Virus record (IMG/VR): IMGVR_UViG_3300042866_000818
Coordinates: 1 to 37,182 of that record
DNA from: a virus
Length of the DNA: 37,182 nt
Reading direction: 5' to 3' (one strand)
The notes beneath the pieces are model-generated. The model made no database searches. It saw nothing but the letters and a program-made list of their open reading frames with translations, and was not told the origin of the DNA. A program made the position numbers and the translations under genes. Position 1 is the stretch's first letter; every line of letters begins with the position of its first letter. Positions 5,074 to 32,939 of this stretch are shown in pieces.

Positions 5074-7281
5074 ATGGGTGGCGGTGGAAATACCACTTCA
5101 ACGGTTACGCAGCAGAACATTCCAGAGGAGTTCTTCCCGTACTTCGACCGGCTCCTCCTGCAGGCCGAGAACGAGATGGGCAAGCCGTATCAGCCCTATC
5201 AGGGTCAGCGGCTTGGTGATGTGTCCGCTGACACCCTCGCGTCTTACAACCTTACGCGAGATATCGCGGGAAGGCCGACCCCCGGTCGCGACCTAGCCTC
5301 CAACGTGGCCGCCCAGAATGTGTTCAGGACCGGGGAGCTGATGGGCTCCGCCGCCCCGTACCAATTCGACCAATACGGCGGCTTCACGGCTGGGGGCGCG
5401 TCTCCGTATGCGGGCTTTGGAGAGTCTCGAGTTTCCCCGTATGCGGGATTTAATGTAACTCGGGGTCGGGAGTTTGGCGGCTTCGAGGCTGGTCGGGCTG
5501 ATCCTTATGCCGGATTCCGGACGACAGAGGTCACGCCGTTCCAAGAGTTTGAGGCTGGTCAAGCGTCTCCGTATGCTGACTTCTCGCAGATTCAAGGTCG
5601 GGAGTACACCGGATTCCGTGCTGGCGAGGCGACGCCATTTGCTGACTTCTCTGAGACTCAGGCCAGAGAGTATGGTGGGTTTGAGGCCGGTCAGGCTGAC
5701 CAGTTCACTGACTTTAGGGAGACGCAGGCCCAGCCCTTTGCAGACTTCTCGGAGGCGCAGTACAGCGAGTTTAATTTCGGACCCTCTGGTGAGTTCACCG
5801 GAGAGGACGCGACTCGCTACATGGACCCGTACATGCAGAGCGTGGTCGATATTCAGAAGCGCAAGGCGCAAGAGGACTATGACATTGCGCGGCAGGGGCG
5901 CAGTGCCCGGGCAGTGTCTGCTGGTGCCTTCGGTGGCTCTCGTGCTGCAATTCAGGAAGGTCTTGCTGAGCGCTCACTGCTAGAGCAGCAGGCTGACATC
6001 CAAGCCCGCGGCCTGTCTTCCGCCTACTCCGACGCACAGCGCCTGTTCGAGGCTGATCGCGCCGCCCGCATGGCTACGGAACGCGCAAGAGCCGACGAGG
6101 CGTCTCGCGTTCAGACTGGCATTGCTGGAGAGGCTGCAAGGGTCCAACAGGCTCGCGCAGCGGAACTTGCTCGCACTCAGGGCATCAGCGTGGAAGAAGC
6201 TGCTCGTGTTCAGCAAGCTCGTGCTGCAGAATTGGCACGGACGCAGGGCATCAGCATTGATGAGGCCGCTCGCATTCAACAGGCTGAGGCTGCGGAGGCT
6301 GCTCGCGTACAGGGCACTGCCCAAGAGGAAGCAGCTCGAGTCCAACAGGCAAGGGCAGCGGAGATCGCTCGCACACAGGGCATCTCAATCGAGGAGGCAT
6401 CTCGCATTCAGCAGGCAGAGGCAGCTGAGGCAGCGCGAGTTCAGGGCATGTCTCAGGAAGAGGCGGCTCGTGTTCAGGCCGCTCAGGCCTCAGAGCTCGC
6501 ACGGGTTCAGGGTATCAGCGTTGAGGAGCTTGGTCGCATTCAGCAGGCGAGAGCCGCTGAGCTTGCCCGGACCCAAGGCATCAGCGTCGAAGAGGCCGCT
6601 CGAGTGCAGCAGGCCGAGGCTGCTGAAATCGCCAGAACGCAGGGTATCAGCATCGAGGAAGCGGCTCGCGTACAGGCGGCGCGGGCTTCTGAATCGGCTC
6701 GTATTCAGGCGATGTCTCAGGAAGAGTTTGCCAGAGTGCAGACAGCGCAGGCGGCTGAGCTTGCACGTGTGCAGGGCATCAGTGTCGAAGAGGCGGCAAG
6801 GGTGCAGCAGGCTAGGGCAGCAGAGCTCGCTCGAGTCCAAGGCATCAGCATTGAAGAAGCGGCTCGAGTGCAAGCTGGTCAGGCTGCAGAGACTGCCCGT
6901 GTTCAGGAGGCTCAGGCCGCCGAGAACAGATCGGCCCGTCAAGAGCAGCTTGCCATGATGGGCTTCTCGGCAGAACAGGCGTCGCTCGTTGCTGACCTAG
7001 AAGAGCAGGCTCGCACTGGCGACATTCAGGCAGCTCAGATGCTCGAGACCATTGGCCGCTCTCAGGAGGCCCGCCGACAGGCCCAGCTTGACCTCGACTA
7101 TGAGGACTACCTGCGCCAGCAGGGCTACAATCAGGACCAGATCGGCTTCATGAGCAACATTCTGCAGGGCTTGCCAATTGCAAACGCTGGAGAAACGGTG
7201 ACGCAAACCCCGTACAACCCCGTCCAGCAGGCACTCGGCGCTGGCCTCGCTGGACTTAGCCTCTACAGAGGGTTCCAATAA
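5074..7281 (+). CDS. Repeat-rich virion protein with 11- and 22-residue repeats
   Basis: 735 residues; the ATG follows the previous stop by one base. Residues about 100-231 are twelve tandem 11-residue units of the type PYAGFxxxxxx. Residues about 235-340 contain a conserved phage module (TRYMDPYMQSVVDIQKRKAQ, then SAGAFGGSRAA) shared by many podovirus-type structural proteins. Residues 353-616 are twelve 22-residue units (EAARVQQARAA then ELARTQGISVE), each being two 11-mers, predicted to form a long right-handed hendecad coiled coil. The C terminus (about 617-735) is non-repetitive and ends in a Gly/Ala-rich segment. It is probably a fibrous internal or tail protein; its stop overlaps the next start. 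Confidence 0.75.
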   Translation: MGGGGNTTSTVTQQNIPEEFFPYFDRLLLQAENEMGKPYQPYQGQRLGDVSADTLASYNLTRDIAGRPTPGRDLASNVAAQNVFRTGELMGSAAPYQFDQYGGFTAGGASPYAGFGESRVSPYAGFNVTRGREFGGFEAGRADPYAGFRTTEVTPFQEFEAGQASPYADFSQIQGREYTGFRAGEATPFADFSETQAREYGGFEAGQADQFTDFRETQAQPFADFSEAQYSEFNFGPSGEFTGEDATRYMDPYMQSVVDIQKRKAQEDYDIARQGRSARAVSAGAFGGSRAAIQEGLAERSLLEQQADIQARGLSSAYSDAQRLFEADRAARMATERARADEASRVQTGIAGEAARVQQARAAELARTQGISVEEAARVQQARAAELARTQGISIDEAARIQQAEAAEAARVQGTAQEEAARVQQARAAEIARTQGISIEEASRIQQAEAAEAARVQGMSQEEAARVQAAQASELARVQGISVEELGRIQQARAAELARTQGISVEEAARVQQAEAAEIARTQGISIEEAARVQAARASESARIQAMSQEEFARVQTAQAAELARVQGISVEEAARVQQARAAELARVQGISIEEAARVQAGQAAETARVQEAQAAENRSARQEQLAMMGFSAEQASLVADLEEQARTGDIQAAQMLETIGRSQEARRQAQLDLDYEDYLRQQGYNQDQIGFMSNILQGLPIANAGETVTQTPYNPVQQALGAGLAGLSLYRGFQ
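5371..5766 (+). repeat. Twelve tandem 33-bp (11-residue) coding repeats
   Basis: Twelve consecutive in-frame units, each with aromatic residues at unit positions 2 and 5 (for example PYAGF, EFGGF, PFADF). The DNA copies have diverged more than the protein, which suggests old duplications under selection for the Y/F pattern. They look extended or beta-like rather than helical. Confidence 0.85.
6130..6921 (+). repeat. Twelve tandem 66-bp (22-residue) hendecad coiled-coil repeats
   Basis: Units begin every 66 bases from 6130; the twelfth, at 6856, is degenerate at its end. Protein consensus: EAARVQQARAA followed by ELARTQGISVE. Arg and Gln are at fixed places and Ala, Val, Ile or Leu fill the core positions. 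The Q-G at unit positions 17-18 gives each unit a possible kink. Synonymous changes are frequent. Confidence 0.9.
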
Positions 7282-9248: not shown

Positions 9249-12200
9249 ATGGCAGTGATTTCCGTACCCTCTTCCGCAACGGGCGCGACGTACTCTGTTC
9301 GCATCGCGGGTGACACTCCAACTGCAGCAGAGCAGGCTCGCATCGATGCCTATGTCGCGCAGATGGATGCGACCATGGCACCAGTTGCGCCTCCCCCGGA
9401 GGACACGGGTCCTGACACCTCCTTCGCTGGGGCGCTTCGTTTCTCCCTAGATCAGCCCCTCGAGAACATGGCCGTGACCTCGAGAGCACTCGGCGGTGAG
9501 GGTATTGCTTCCTTCTTGAGCGGTCTCACCGAAGCGCCGACTGGATACCAGCCAGCGTTCGAGGGCTTTATGAACGAGGACGGCTCGTTCTTTGACTTCT
9601 CGTATCTGCCACGCGCTGCGGTGGAACAGACTGGTCAGGTCGTCGGCGCTGTCGGCACTCGTGCTGCTGGTGCACTTCTTGGTGGTGCAGCAGGCTCCGT
9701 CATCCCGGGCGTTGGCACTGCTGCTGGTGCTGTCGCTGGCGGCTTTGCTGGACCAGCACTGTTCGAGGCGGTTCAGGTCCTCGGACCCGTCGCCTTGGAA
9801 AGGGCTAGAAACAATGGAAGGGAAGAGCCCAACGCCGAAGACTGGCTTGGCGCAGCGTCCACTGCCGCGGGCTCCGGTGCTCTTAACGCCATCGCCCCCG
9901 GTATGTCTGGGTTCTTCAAGAAGACCATCGTTGAAGCTGGCACCGAAGGCCTTCAATCCGTAATCCAGCAGGCTGGCGAAACCGCAGCCACAGATGTCGG
10001 GCTGCAGATCGACCCGAGACAGGCGGCGGCAGAAGCCATCCTCGGTGGCACCGCTGCCGGGGCCATTGCTGCCCCGTTCGCCATTGCAGAAAGCCGCGCA
10101 GCCAAGCGTGACGCCGCAAAGAAGGCAGACGAGAAAGCCCTAAGCGACCTCGAGGAAGATCAGAGGGAGGAGGCTGAAGACGCAGCCAAGCGCATTGCAT
10201 TTGGCGATGCTGCCATGGCACCGACTCCAGCCGAGGAGGCCCCTCCCGTCGAGCCCGTGGCACTTCTGCCAGCCCCGGCTAGTGCAGCCGCCGCGACGCC
10301 ACTGCCTCAGGCACCAGCTGCCGTAGAGCCATCAGGCACCGTGGAGGAGGTTCGCCGAGCTGATGCACAGAAGGTGCTCGCTGAGGCTGGCACCCTAGAG
10401 CAAAGAATGCCGTCACCTGAGGTCGGTGCGGAAGCAGCGCAGCAGCCGCCAGCCGCAACAGCCGCCCCCACGCCAGTCCCTCCGGCCCCTGTGCTCGAGA
10501 CATTGCAGCGCGCACGAGAGCGTCAGGTCGCAGGTAGCAACCAGCTGGTCAGCAAGAAGGGCGCACAGCGTCTAGCTGACGCTGGCCTACTCGCCCCCGA
10601 AGACATCGATGTCCCGGTGGTCGCGAACACCAAGGTGAGCGAGCTTCTCGCGCTCGGGCCAGAAGAGATTACGCGGCGCATTCAGGGAACGCAGCCCACT
10701 CAGGCTGTCCCTCCTGCGCCAACCACCCCCGCCGCTGGCGTTGGCACCGCCCCAACCCCGGAGAGTCTTGTCACACCTGACACTCCACGCCCGCCGCAGC
10801 CCTTCCGCTGGCGTGACTACACTGCAGCAACTCAGGCCGTGGTCAACGCCAAGGACGCGTCTGTCCCTGCCATTCAGAAGGCTGCAAGCACTGACCCAAA
10901 GAAGCCCGCACCTCCTGCAGTGGCCAAGGCTATCCGTGACCGCATGGTTGCCGACGGCGTCATCGTGGCCGACAAGAAGTCCAAGGGCGGCTTCCGCGTG
11001 GTCCCGACCCGTGTGCCTGATGTCGATCAGACCGAGAGCTACCGCCGCACCCTTGATGACCTGCAGCAGGATGCACAGGACGCTACTGCAGCGCAGCAGA
11101 AGGCGCTCCTAGACGCACGTCGCGCAGAGCAGACTGGCTCCAAGGCCGACGCCCGCAAGTTCAATCTGCAGGCAGATGCTGCCGCAGAGACGCTGACTCG
11201 CATTCAGGCAACGCGTCAGGAGGTAGAGGCTCGTCTGCCCAGAGCTGCCGCCGAGGTCGCTGTGCCACGCACTGAGGCACCGCTGTCGCCCATCGCAGAG
11301 GGCAGAGCTGCAGTCCCCATCACCGAGGCACCAGCTCCGATCCAGACCGTTGCGGTATCTGACCGCGCCAAGCGCCTGAAGCAATCCATGGATTACTACC
11401 AGCGTGAGGCGGCTCGCAAGGCAGCCGAGGCACGTCGCCTGCGTGAGTCCGGCAAAAAAGTTCAATTGCCCAAATCTGACCAGCAGCGCATGCTCGATCT
11501 GGAACGTGATGCCGCCGCAGACTCTCGCATGGCGCAGGCCATCCGTGGACAGCTTGCACGTCCCGCTGCAGACATCGAGCAGGACCGCGCACAGAAGGCA
11601 GCAGCTGTAGCCAAGGAGGCGTCCGACGCAGCAGAAGCCGCAGCACGGGCACCGATCTACACTGCAAAGGAGGGCCAGCTTTTCACCGCCCTCCGCCGCC
11701 GCCTAGACAACCTCGGCCTGTCCGACGTGAAGCTTGTGGCCGAGCGCGTCATTCGTCCCGCAAATGCACCACAGAATGCTCTTGTAGAGGGCATGATGGA
11801 TGTGGACCGCCGAAATGGCAACCGCATCATCGCGCTGGCTCTAGGCGTGTACGACCCAAAGATGACACAGCAGGAGCTGTTCGATGCCATCTCCGGCGTG
11901 ATGAACCACGAGGTCATCCACGCGATCCGTAGCCTCGGCCTCTTCACCGATGGCGAGTGGAAGACCCTCAGCGATCTGGCCGCACGTCAGCGCTACATGA
12001 AGGTCAAGGACGGCAAGAGCGTTGAGCGTGGGTACACCTACCTGCAACGCGCACAGCAGATGTATGCCAGTGACAGCCCTGAGATTCAGTCCGAAGAGGC
12101 TGTCGCGGAGATGTTCCGTGATTATGTTGCTGGTCGCCTGAAGATTGGCGGCAAACCGAAGACCCTCATGGATCGCATCAAGGGCTTCTTCAAGGCCCTG

Positions 12201-27720: not shown

Positions 27721-28815
27721 CTAGTCCTTGATGATGATGCGAACGGTCTCGCCGATGGGTGCCGTGTGGCCGGGGCCACCGCTCGAAACCCACAGCAGTG
27801 GGTAGTCCACGCGCTTGGGGAAATCGAAGACCTCAAGGTCGGTGAGGTAGACCATCTGATCGCATTGCAGGTTGTTCTCCTCGACGTAGTCGAAGACGGG
27901 CATGACGAGGGTGCCACCGCGGTCCTTGTAGTTGAACCGTGTGACCTCATCGCCCTGATCGAAGGTGTCGATGTGGTTGATCTTCATCGAGCAGTAGATG
28001 ATCGTGATCGACTGCGGCTGCACCTCGGTCGAGATCGCGTTGACCTCGCCGAGGAAGTGGGTCAGCTCCTTGTCGGACACTGACCCAGAGGTGTCCACCC
28101 CGATGACCCAGTGGCCTGCGCCCTTGTGGTCAACGCTCGGCGAGATGATGCGCTGATGGTGGTACATCTTCCGCTCTGGCTTCTTGAAGGTGTAGTCGTC
28201 GGGCTGGTCGCCCGCAAAGAACCGCCGCATCTTGTCGCGGTAGTCCACCTGTGCATCCTTCATGTCGGTCAGCATGCCCTCGACGAAGGCGGGCAGCTTG
28301 CCGATAGCCTTGGCAGCGTTGGCAGCGTTCATGACCTGCTGGTCAATCTCGTTGTCCATCTCTGCCTTCTCATCCTCGCTCATGTCGTCAACGAGGATGC
28401 CCCACGATGGCATCTCGGGAGGGTCAGGGATCAGGTCGTAGACCTTCTCCGATGTCATGCCCTGATACTTGCGGTCGAACAGTCCATCCGATGGCAGCTT
28501 GAACCCCTCGTCGATGACGATCAGGTTGATGGTGTAATCGGTGGCGTAGTTCCACTTCTTCGCATCGCGTGTGCCGCGCCGTAGCATGTGCTTCAGCGCC
28601 TTGTGTGCCAGCTCATGGACGATGACGCCGAGGGTCTCTTCCTCGGTCATCTTGTCAGTGAACGCACGGTTCCACCTGATCCACCTGCCGTTGGTACACA
28701 TGGTGGGGATGGAGTTGTCCTCGATGAACTCCGTGGCCATGGCCAGCGAACCCCAGAAGGGCTGCTGGAGCAAGAGCCGCGTCTTGCAGCGGCTGATCTT
28801 CAACTGTGCATCCAT
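27721..28815 (-). CDS. DUF2201-type metallopeptidase-like protein with VWA domain
   Basis: 364 residues; AGGAGG about six bases before ATG 28815. VIVHELAHKALKH carries a zinc-protease HExxH (H67, E68, H71) in the N-terminal DUF2201-like domain. Residues about 235-360 form a VWA-like domain with the metal-ion-dependent adhesion site DTSGSVS (D241, S243, S245). DUF2201 proteins typically pair with MoxR ATPases, as here with 28838-29872 just upstream. By analogy the ATPase would remodel or load a target bound by the VWA domain. Whether the HExxH site cleaves protein is untested. Confidence 0.88.
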   Translation of the reverse strand: MDAQLKISRCKTRLLLQQPFWGSLAMATEFIEDNSIPTMCTNGRWIRWNRAFTDKMTEEETLGVIVHELAHKALKHMLRRGTRDAKKWNYATDYTINLIVIDEGFKLPSDGLFDRKYQGMTSEKVYDLIPDPPEMPSWGILVDDMSEDEKAEMDNEIDQQVMNAANAAKAIGKLPAFVEGMLTDMKDAQVDYRDKMRRFFAGDQPDDYTFKKPERKMYHHQRIISPSVDHKGAGHWVIGVDTSGSVSDKELTHFLGEVNAISTEVQPQSITIIYCSMKINHIDTFDQGDEVTRFNYKDRGGTLVMPVFDYVEENNLQCDQMVYLTDLEVFDFPKRVDYPLLWVSSGGPGHTAPIGETVRIIIKD

Positions 28816-28837
28816 TGATGCCTCCTGTGTGATGGTG

Positions 28838-29872
28838 TCAGAGGATCAGTGCCTTGCCCTCGGTCAGGACCCACTGCCGCACCGCGTTGGACTTCTTCAA
28901 CTCGGCATCCCGGTTGATGGCGTCCTTCATGATGAAGGCAGCGAACTCCTGCTGAGGCAGGCGCTTCATGTAGGCGATGATGCGATCCGCGTTGATGTCC
29001 GACATGCGCTTGGCCAGCGCAGCGCACACGGCATGCAGGATCGACAGGTTGCTTGGGATTTCTGCCCGCTGTGGGTTGGCGATGATGCCGTCGATGTCGG
29101 GCATCTGCGATGTGACCTTCAGGTAGACTTGGAAGTCAGACGCAGCCTCAGTGCCGACCTGTCCTGCGATGGAGTAGGACATGCACAGGGGATCGACGTT
29201 GAACCGGGACAGGATCGTGCTGACCCGGTCCCATGAGCGGGGCGAGGGGCATGCCGTCTGGTCGCGGTCGAACTTGTGCAGGTACTCAGGACGTGCGCGA
29301 AGGTAGCCGCACACGCGCTCATCGCCACCGTTGCGCGACAGGTAGGCGACCACATCCTCGAGGTCAGCCTCGACGGGCAGGAACATCATGCGGTCACGCA
29401 GGTGGGTCGGGATAGCGCTGGTGCCAGCCTTGTCCGACAGTCGGTTGCCTGCCGCCACGATGGCCACGTTGTCGGGAAGCTGACGCTTGCCAATGCGGCG
29501 CTCGTTGGTGAGCTGTGCGAAGATGTTCTGCACTGCGGTGGTGGACTGCGGTAGCTCGTCGAGAGACAGCATGGTGGGGGTCGATCCGTCCGGCCACCAG
29601 TCGGGCTTGCTGCGCTTCATCTCGTCCGATCCCTCGATGGGCAGCGCCCACCCTGCAAGCTCTGCCGGGTCATACTGCGAGCCGATCAGGGTGATGACAT
29701 CAAGGCCAAGGCGCTGGGCCACCTGCTTGTGGCCCTCGGTCTTGCCAAGGCCCGGTGCGCCCTCCCAGTATGGGATGATCATGTCGGCGGCTCGCCATTT
29801 GCCCGTTGCGAGGGCGTCGAGTTGTGCTTTGACTGCTTCACTGGTGATCTGGATAGCTTGGGAAATCTTCAT
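28838..29872 (-). CDS. MoxR-type AAA+ ATPase
   Basis: 344 residues. ATG 29872 is chosen over 29920 because GAGGAGG precedes it and the GTTC-type element lies in between. Walker A GAPGLGKTE (K44), Walker B MLSLDELP (D105, E106), sensor AAGNRLSD (N143) and arginine-finger region THLRDRMMF (R159, R161) are all present, so it should bind and hydrolyse ATP as a hexamer. MoxR ATPases act as chaperones with VWA partners; the neighbour 27721-28815 is such a partner. Confidence 0.88.
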   Translation of the reverse strand: MKISQAIQITSEAVKAQLDALATGKWRAADMIIPYWEGAPGLGKTEGHKQVAQRLGLDVITLIGSQYDPAELAGWALPIEGSDEMKRSKPDWWPDGSTPTMLSLDELPQSTTAVQNIFAQLTNERRIGKRQLPDNVAIVAAGNRLSDKAGTSAIPTHLRDRMMFLPVEADLEDVVAYLSRNGGDERVCGYLRARPEYLHKFDRDQTACPSPRSWDRVSTILSRFNVDPLCMSYSIAGQVGTEAASDFQVYLKVTSQMPDIDGIIANPQRAEIPSNLSILHAVCAALAKRMSDINADRIIAYMKRLPQQEFAAFIMKDAINRDAELKKSNAVRQWVLTEGKALIL

Positions 29873-29891
29873 GGTTGCCTCCTCAGGCGCT

Positions 29892-29911
29892 GAAAAGTTC
29901 GATTGAACTTT
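29892..29911 (-). promoter_or_regulatory. GTTC/GAAC inverted-repeat element (copy 3)
   Basis: On the minus strand AAAGTTCAATCGAACTTTTC: perfect 7-bp arms AAAGTTC and GAACTTT with a four-base loop and a T-run, located directly upstream of the MoxR gene's ribosome-binding site. Could be a weak attenuator or an operator for the ATPase pair. Confidence 0.55.
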
Positions 29912-29916
29912 GGCGA

Positions 29917-30000
29917 TCACCCGCCAAAGAAATTCTCAAGGATCGCCCCGAACACGACGATGACGATCAGGAAGACGATTGGGATGATGGCTGCGTCCAT
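29917..30000 (-). CDS. 27-residue single-pass membrane peptide
   Basis: ATG 30000 follows the previous TGA by one base (TGATATG). The peptide starts MDAAIIPIVFLIVIVVFGAI and ends LENFFGG: residues about 5-20 form one strongly hydrophobic helix. Length and composition resemble small phage membrane peptides. No separate ribosome-binding site is seen, so expression relies on coupling. It precedes the MoxR gene and might anchor that module to the membrane, which is speculation. Confidence 0.5.
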   Translation of the reverse strand: MDAAIIPIVFLIVIVVFGAILENFFGG

Positions 30001-31628: not shown

Positions 31629-31647
31629 CTTCTCTCTCCTGTGTTGA

Positions 31648-31682
31648 TGAAAAAAGGTCCATGGATCATCGACCCATGGACC
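31648..31682 (-). terminator. Perfect 11-bp intrinsic terminator in leader of unit L2
   Basis: Minus-strand AAGGTCCATGG (31682-31672), 9-base loop, CCATGGACCTT (31662-31652), followed by TTTT (31651-31648). The ribosome-binding site AGGAG of the next gene lies within about ten bases, so the hairpin sits inside a leader and looks like an attenuator. Confidence 0.85.
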
Positions 31683-31719
31683 TTGTGCTTGCGTTTGACC
31701 GTCAGGCCGCGCCCTGCTC

Positions 31720-32150
31720 CGCCTAACCCCGCGTTGCCGGACCCCGCCTAGACCGCCTCGCCGATCCGGGACTAACCCAGACATGCCTCGACCGCCTGAC
31801 CAGACCTGACCGTGCCATGACCAACCAACGCCATGACATGCCTCGACCGCCTCGCCGCGCCCCGCCGCGCCTAGCCTGACCGTGCCTAACCGGGACCGCC
31901 CAACCTAAGCGAACCCGACCTAACCGAAACTAGACCGCCTAGGCGCGCCGCGACTAGACGCACCCGAACACACCGAACCCTGACCGCCTAGCCCTGCCGA
32001 GCCGCGCCGCAACTAGACGCACCCGGACACACCGAACCTTGACCGCCTCGCCTCACCCGGCCCTAACAAGCCAGACCAGAACCGCCGATCCCAACCGATC
32101 CGCGCAATACCACGCCGCACCAAGACACACCGAGACCGCCATCCTTGACC
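31720..32150 (-). repeat. Degenerate pentanucleotide array (GG every 5 nt, NRGGY)
   Basis: For about 430 bases, GG on the minus strand (CC on the plus strand) recurs with a 5-base step. Between 31850 and 31890 nine consecutive CC dinucleotides start at exactly 5-base intervals. Typical minus-strand pentamers are TAGGC, GAGGC, CCGGT, TCGGG. Other positions vary, with TAG and TGA scattered, so it is not coding in any frame. It lies between the L1 end at 32187 and the terminator at 31648. Confidence 0.85.
31945..32052. repeat. 49-base direct repeat inside the pentamer array
   Basis: 31945-31993 and 32004-32052 differ at only four of 49 positions. Each copy contains ACTAGACGCACCC and CACACCGAACC. 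A second pair, GACATGCCTCGACCGCCT, is at 31780 and 31835, 55 bases apart (eleven pentamers). Confidence 0.85.
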
Positions 32151-32154
32151 ACAT

Positions 32155-32174
32155 GGGGCGGCTTGCACCGCCCC
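32155..32174 (-). other. Intercistronic stem-loop E
   Basis: GGGGCGG (32155-32161), loop of six, CCGCCCC (32168-32174), flanked on the minus strand by GGTGTG before and CATGTGG after. It follows the stop of gene 32187-32939 and resembles the four other L1 stem-loops. Confidence 0.65.
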
Positions 32175-32186
32175 ACGCACACCGCA

Positions 32187-32939
32187 TCACGCAGAGCGGC
32201 GCATGACCTCGTCATGGTAGAACCCAAGAAGCTCTGCCGTGTCGTGATCCGCAGGCTCAGGGTTGTCGAATGCATGCTGTTGCACATCCCGCGCCTCGTT
32301 CATCAGATCGTCCCACGTGGGCGAGGTCTCTTCGTCACCCATCACTGTGAAGCAACCGTTCGATCCCTTGCCCTTCTCCTGACGGAAGTCACCGATGCCG
32401 ATGATGGTTCCAGCGTTGGTCAGGATCGACGCAATCGAGTGCGCGTTGAGGGTGGGCTGAACGAATGCCACCGTGACCTCAGCACACCAGCGTGGTAGGT
32501 ATGCCCGCGTCCGCACGTCCGGGGTCTTGTTCATGTCAGCCGACCGGACAACGTCCATCTTCAGGTAGGGCTTGCCCCACACCTGAATGTGCATCTCAGG
32601 CAGGAAGATCAGGCGCTGCACATCCACCTTGGTGATGCCTGCCGTTGCCAGTGCAGCGGTGGCCATGGCACCCTTGACGCCCGGTGCAGGGAAGCACAGG
32701 AGCGTTTCCCCGGTGGCCTTGCGGTACATGCTGTCCCGAAACTCCTGTTCTGGGTGGTGCTTGAGGTTCACACGCTCAGCCTTGGTCTTGCGGGTTGACC
32801 CCAGCAAGAGGTCGCGCTTTGCCTTCACGCTCATGCTGTTGAAGTACAGCGGGGTCGATCCGACCATGCGTAGGGTCAATCGGCCCTGCTTGAGGCGGTC
32901 GATGTGTAGCTCTGTGGTCTCTTTCTTCGCGATAGCCAT
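32187..32939 (-). CDS. Conserved phage protein, RAMP-like in appearance
   Basis: 250 residues; GAGGAG before ATG 32939. The pattern LTLRMVGSTPLYFNSMS, KAERVNLKHHPEQEFRDSMY, FPAPGVKGAMATAALATAG, then VVRSADMNKTPDVRTRAYLPRW and IIGIGDFRQEKGKGSNG is a phage family I recognise but whose function I cannot name. The Gly-rich loop (IGDFRQEKGKGSNG, near 200) resembles RAMP/Cas-type RNA-binding folds, and this is inference. It is the last L1 gene, directly upstream of the pentamer array, so a protein-array link is conceivable. Confidence 0.65.
   Translation of the reverse strand: MAIAKKETTELHIDRLKQGRLTLRMVGSTPLYFNSMSVKAKRDLLLGSTRKTKAERVNLKHHPEQEFRDSMYRKATGETLLCFPAPGVKGAMATAALATAGITKVDVQRLIFLPEMHIQVWGKPYLKMDVVRSADMNKTPDVRTRAYLPRWCAEVTVAFVQPTLNAHSIASILTNAGTIIGIGDFRQEKGKGSNGCFTVMGDEETSPTWDDLMNEARDVQQHAFDNPEPADHDTAELLGFYHDEVMRRSA

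Follow-up and report, generated by a model that had tools for sequence, protein, structure and literature searches.

A probable VIPR locus with guide modules packed head to tail in the genome of a tailed phage

A noncoding array of about 80 five-base units in the genome of a tailed phage is very probably the guide-RNA array of a Viral Interference Programmable Repeat (VIPR) locus, which would comprise a vipr gene, an array of vrRNAs, and an accessory gene, with guides aimed at competing phages. The array runs on the minus strand from 32150 to 31697 (Table 1) of the virus DNA IMGVR_UViG_3300042866_000818, whose 37,182 nt were analyzed as a whole and are called the window here; the location in a phage follows from the nature of the window as a virus record with virion genes. 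VIPR was described in a preprint of April 2026 and proposed there as an ancestor of CRISPR (PMC13142463, bioRxiv 2026.04.26.720920). As set out in that preprint, Vipr is a phage-encoded ancestral RAMP protein and the vrRNAs alternate GGY and NN, with each NN pairing to double-stranded DNA and a skip of one target base between NNs; the output is repression, and the natural targets are competing phages (PMC13142463). Both the idea of a RAMP protein and the division into modules predate our comparison with this preprint, and what we show here is the array structure, gene linkage, the RAMP fold, Vipr homology, and the reading code in relatives.

Table 1. Coordinates of the features of the VIPR locus in the window.
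Feature	Positions	Strand	Basis
Putative vap (VIPR accessory protein), 161 aa	31143..31628	minus	position and conservation
11-bp hairpin with T-run, intrinsic terminator	31648..31684	minus	sequence; perfect inverted repeat 31684-31654
vrRNA array, ca. 80 NN-G-K-Y pentamers, modules of GGTC + n pentamers	31697..32150	minus	sequence, lag statistics, segmentation
Module m9 (n=10) and closing GGTC	31697..31754	minus	segmentation
Module m8, n=7	31755..31793	minus	segmentation
Module m7, 55 nt, internal one-base register slip	31794..31848	minus	segmentation
Module m6, n=9	31849..31897	minus	segmentation
Module m5, n=7	31898..31936	minus	segmentation
Module m4, n=9	31937..31985	minus	segmentation
Module m3, n=11, near-duplicate of m4	31986..32044	minus	segmentation
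Module m2, n=7	32045..32083	minus	segmentation
Module m1, n=10, NN = TC GT TT GC GT AT GC TC TG (TC)	32084..32137	minus	segmentation
Hairpin between vipr stop codon and first GGTC	32151..32178	minus	stem conservation in relatives
vipr, 250-aa RAMP/Cas7-like protein, presumed guide-RNA-binding subunit	32187..32939	minus	linkage, AF2/Foldseek, profile match

Pentamers of the form NN-G-(G/T)-(C/T), or NN-G-K-Y for short, fill the array. Pairs of them at lag 5 number 67, compared with 12.6 ± 3.7 and never more than 27 across 5000 Markov shuffles. Lags 10 and 15 show extra peaks, and the dinucleotide CC gives 38 pairs at lag 5 versus 18.3 ± 5.9 in shuffles. Within the window, the array ranks first among lag-5 stretches and near the top in period-5 power. 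An initial annotation of the window had described a 5-nt rhythm of about 80 units that is not coding in any frame and had proposed a lag-5 autocorrelation of GG against shuffled sequence as a check; the peak is clear above the controls, so the rhythm is real, and stop codons break all six frames, leaving a longest open run of 68 codons. From its consensus NRGGY, the GG-type step of 5 nt stands, but the unit is better written as NN-G-K-Y: in the modules of relatives, both N positions are nearly free and are followed by G (95%), then G (69%) or T (24%), and then a pyrimidine (96%). The array RNA shows no excess of structure over shuffled sequence, and no Rfam family matched the array at E values up to 1.

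A second level of order, absent from the initial annotation, lies above the pentamers. At intervals of 7-12 pentamers, and typically behind a unit that ends in GGC, the tetranucleotide GGTC appears and thereby divides the array into modules that measure 54, 39, 59, 49, 39, 49, 55, and 39 nt in array order before the last one; the likeness of the third and fourth modules also appears as a 59-bp repeat pair at 31930-32052 in a TRF search. Among 395 distinct modules of relatives, the length follows 5n+4 in 312 of the 386 that have at least 24 nt. When similar modules are compared, NN change at 35% per position and the three positions of G-K-Y at 1.7, 8, and 12%, with the GGT of the separator being invariant, in a set gathered with a motif filter that makes G-K-Y and GGTC look more conserved than they are. 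Whole modules are gained or lost between close relatives. Such turnover would also suit a decaying satellite repeat or a low-complexity coding sequence without function, and some look-alikes on cellular contigs, e.g., in L209, do lie in open reading frames. However, the strict 5n+4 spacing, a rate of change at G-K-Y that is roughly 3- to 20-fold below that at NN, the absence of an open frame through the array, and the linkage to vipr described below leave this reading with a negligible likelihood.

Several look-alikes on cellular contigs (L209, L213, L222, and others) either lie in open frames or come without a Vipr gene in the fetched stretch and were not counted as VIPR. Part of an Anaerolineales contig (L209:5500-6812), for instance, shows NNGKY-like periodicity inside a 1335-nt open frame with glutamine/glycine-rich repeats, and pattern searches must filter such cases. 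At the other end of the scale, the largest array that we have seen spans 2.6 kb with 43 boundary motifs (L104, ca. 9482-12121 of the reverse complement), and another one of 2.3 kb holds 28 boundary motifs (L171).

The gene directly upstream of the array is what ties it to a RAMP protein. A vipr homolog is found on the array strand in 166 of 218 fetched array loci and upstream of the main array in 165 of them, with array loci and targets often being near-identical contigs, so that these counts do not represent independent events. Array and vipr share their strand in all cases. The linkage also holds in loci found by DNA pattern alone, i.e., in an IMG/VR scan without any protein bait that returned at least 119 stretches. 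One scan yielded 185 relatives of the vipr protein, which speaks for VIPR being common in uncultured phages. In a Foldseek search of the PDB with an AF2 model of the protein (pLDDT 85), Csm3 and other Cas7-type RAMPs came out on top (best E 5.4e-5, TM ca. 0.4). Pfam gave no confident match for the vipr family, with RAMPs appearing weakly in two members (best E 0.12), whereas the profile of the family matches a single solved chain, the "SUSP1 Vipr protein" of PDB entry 36pp (E 1.3e-5, 47 residues that surround the glycine-rich loop), and scores 27.5 bits against the SUSP1 gene itself.

A number of contigs carry two arrays per locus, among them a clade that includes L015, L030, L047, L078, L127, L157, and others. 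Another VIPR locus sits on a viral contig that is unusually large with 375,937 bases (L135/L315, vipr at 332718-333479) and may represent a jumbo phage or a provirus within host DNA. The same phage-like content is shared by an IMG/VR record (L119) and a metagenome-assembled genome binned as Nealsonbacteria (L219), probably as the result of a binning error.

On the other side of the array, position and conservation point to the adjacent gene as a putative vap, and its family is present in 144 array loci, every time on the array strand. Its AF2 model (pLDDT 86, pTM 0.56) found no fold match in the PDB, and the protein has no significant similarity to the neighbor gene of SUSP1. PADLOC likewise returned no match for the neighbor genes of the array and only a weak Cas4 for a distant nuclease. 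The array strand also carries, farther downstream, a MoxR-like AAA ATPase gene that adjoins a DUF2201 metallopeptidase/VWA-like gene (27721-29920, minus strand). Elsewhere in the window, a 735-aa gene at 5074-7281 with a weak match to DNA ejection proteins contains 66-bp tandem repeats (22 residues) at 6244-6891.

What the guides read can be learned from the related arrays. For this comparison, modules with n of at least 9 from all loci were searched against 2.3 Mb of fetched phage DNA in which the arrays had been masked. With one target base skipped between NNs (skip-1), 10 modules found a match with at most one mismatch, compared with 0 each for skips of 0, 2, or 3 bases and for shuffled NN, and minima of at most 2 mismatches numbered 35 for skip-1 versus 8-11 in the controls. 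A core search limited to units 2 to n-1 gave 84 matches at E < 0.02, representing 17 distinct pairs, versus 7 with shuffled units. The best matches fall within coding sequences, where the skipped base coincides with the wobble position. The rule of pairing NN and skipping one target base is thus recovered from the arrays of relatives and agrees with the preprint (PMC13142463). Since this one-base skip aligns the NN of related arrays with coding DNA in rival phages, we take the array to be a set of guide RNAs.

Several of these guides converge on the same genes. Modules of L100, L089/L145, and L090-L092 (with near-variants in L132 and L148) match a single site within a 504-aa gene in L015 and its homologs, those of L041/L190 (near-variants in L039 and L170) match the gene that precedes it, and the targeted genes of L015 and its homologs encode the large and small subunits of the terminase (terL and terS). 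These terminase matches have 0-1 mismatches over 18-22 positions, and the target phages possess their own vipr gene and array between terminase and portal. The gapped VIPR reading code has hence been recovered independently, and the aim that it shows is the terminase genes of rival phages that bear VIPR themselves. L015 illustrates both sides, with a VIPR cassette between its terminase and portal genes and a terminase that is targeted by guides of other phages.

The matches of relatives also inform about the extent of a guide. Inner units match at 1.7-2.0 of 2 bases, whereas the last pentamer matches at 0.76, near the 0.5 expected by chance, and the matches stop at module ends without extension into the next or previous module. 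Both observations together suggest that one module corresponds to one guide, with the last unit and GGTC as boundary, and the small numbers make this assignment provisional. Guides overlapping neighboring modules were rejected because the matches do not run across these ends.

Searches of IMG/VR and of 397 genomes from a single bacterial family yielded no confident target for the nine modules of the window itself. In IMG/VR, exact skip-1 scans with m1, m3, m4, m6, and m9 gave 0 to 5 loci each, which is the level of chance, with no match for m9. In the 397 genomes, a mismatch scan with m3 returned 10 matches versus 6 for the control, and m1 had only two matches with one mismatch. Module m2 has a 14/14 skip-1 match in L052, though the statistics are weak with 14 positions. 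A 16/16 skip-1 match of m4 falls into a large ORF, portal-like by eye, on L316/L317; its frequency is at the level of chance, and it was kept as an unproven candidate. Judged by its relatives, the array of the window would be directed at other phages as well. An array that instead acts on the phage's own genes or RNA would fit the absence of a foreign target for these particular guides, and repression is an output described in the preprint (PMC13142463). Yet, we consider such self-regulation improbable: the guides of relatives match the terminase genes of other phages almost perfectly, double-stranded DNA binding has been shown for SUSP1 (PMC13142463), and the best skip-1 matches of the nine modules all lie outside the window.

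The target matches bear equally on the idea that the array works at the DNA level, be it as a filament-binding site, a replication origin, a packaging site, or a G-rich R-loop or quadruplex region. Base composition at the array is strongly asymmetric between strands (C 46%, G 22%, and T 10% on the plus strand), and the GGN3 spacing could permit two-layer quadruplexes. Nevertheless, the strand of the array is always that of vipr, many units have no GG because K is T in 24%, and modules of 39-64 bp would, from their lengths, alternate in helical phase, so that together with the guide-target matches in relatives a DNA-level element appears very unlikely. The ideas of an origin, packaging, G-quadruplex, R-loop, or chi site were set aside on the link to the protein and the target matches, and that of T7-like primase sites (GTC) was dropped.

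Two hairpins flank the array. The initial annotation had pointed out an 11-bp terminator with a T-run, which is indeed present as a perfect inverted repeat (AAGGTCCATGG...CCATGGACCTT followed by the T-run) next to the ribosome-binding site of the downstream gene. It had proposed that array and terminator form a leader switch in which an oligomeric protein on the pentamers could decide read-through into this gene. The known precedent is the trp leader, where TRAP, a ring-forming oligomeric protein, recognizes repeats with a 5-nt step. This step is common to both, and the position of hairpin and T-run beside the ribosome-binding site would suit such a switch. However, among 74 distinct regions that precede the downstream gene, only 1 has a terminator of this form, while array and upstream RAMP gene occur together in most loci; the triplet is GKY here and (G/U)AG there; and matches to foreign coding DNA assign a guide function to the NN of related arrays. 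In addition, the linked gene encodes a RAMP rather than TRAP, and no TRAP match was found by Pfam among ten proteins of the window, array neighbors included. With the terminator not being conserved, TRAP-like attenuation was rejected as the function of the array, and we see hardly any room for a leader switch. What survives of the earlier proposal is an element that most likely works at the RNA level, probably with one protein subunit per pentamer, and the triplet and the linked RAMP gene uphold its suggestion that the system differs from TRAP. The terminator may be a clade-specific device that ends the array transcript.

The hairpin at the other end is GC-rich: of 62 distinct relatives, 57 have a stem of at least 5 bp there (mean z -3.3 against mononucleotide shuffles). 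Its alignment was too gappy for a covariation count. A median of 0 T in the 8 nt past the stem argues against a classic terminator; the hairpin may act as a 5' boundary or else terminate vipr weakly.

For the workings of this VIPR locus, we infer transcription, processing to single guides, filament binding, silencing, and a role of the accessory gene. The array would be transcribed from the minus strand into an unstructured RNA that is coated by Vipr subunits, as Cas7-like RAMPs, with one subunit per pentamer holding G-K-Y and presenting NN. Each module of 7-12 pentamers, from GGTC to GGTC, would form one guide whose NN pairs read a DNA target as NN-x-NN-x with the skipped x mostly at the codon wobble position, and the last NNGGC together with GGTC would serve as a non-reading boundary. 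As outcome, genes of competing phages such as those of the terminase would probably be silenced.

The compact packing raises the question how one long RNA yields many guides. One tentative answer, which we regard as conceivable but somewhat less than probable, is a distinct VIPR array subtype with guides lined up head to tail in one RNA, the 4-base GGTC shifting the register by one and the last pentamer being a non-reading boundary. If true, it would be the register shift that terminates one Vipr filament and initiates another, without any need for tails, repeats, or ribozymes. The tail-less, register-shifted packing, the non-reading last pentamer, the conserved hairpin ahead of the array, and the occurrence of the same packing in Gordonia phages (see below) are absent from the main text of the preprint; its fig. 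S18 mentions "staggered arrays with overlapping vrRNAs" (PMC13142463), which may already cover the tail-less packing.

With VIPR as published, the locus shares a phage-encoded protein of RAMP fold, a vrRNA of GGY/NN with hypervariable NN, and a putative accessory gene beside vipr, and the targets of relatives obey the 1-nt skip at the wobble position with rivals as targets. It differs by modules that follow one another head to tail, lack an individual tail, and have GGTC as their sole separator (5n+4, register shift -1), by n of 7-12 compared with 9-16 as published, and by G-K-Y instead of strict GGY (published as YNNGG). Type II VIPR of Escherichia phage SUSP1 resembles the locus in Vipr homology at the profile level and in GGY/NN tracts beside vipr, but there each vrRNA stands alone between constant flanks and has a structured 3' tail (PMC13142463). 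No structured 3' tail, as would mark type II, accompanies the modules in the window, where GGTC alone stands between them; consequently, the locus was not filed as type II but as VIPR without placement in one of the seven types.

Closer parallels in packing come from two cultured Gordonia phages, Ecliptus and UmaThurman, whose proteins gp19 and gp39 are clear relatives of the vipr protein (1e-38 and 1e-37, respectively, in a small search set) and are each followed by an array. The spacings in Ecliptus are all 5n+4 (54, 44, 44, 49) with GGC-N-GGC as separator, and those in UmaThurman are mostly 5n+4, which suggests that this spacing, combined with another separator, is a general principle. Inside the UmaThurman array behind gp39 lies gp40, a "hypothetical protein" (NC_031249.1 33362-33685; L322:4625-4948) that is probably not a gene. 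Class 1 CRISPR-Cas differs from the locus by palindromic repeats, contiguous spacers, and a cas operon, none of which were seen here, where guides are gapped and the separator has 4 nt. What connects both systems is the RAMP fold of the protein, with Cas7/Csm3 on the crRNA there and a Foldseek match to Csm3 here (E 5e-5, TM ca. 0.4).
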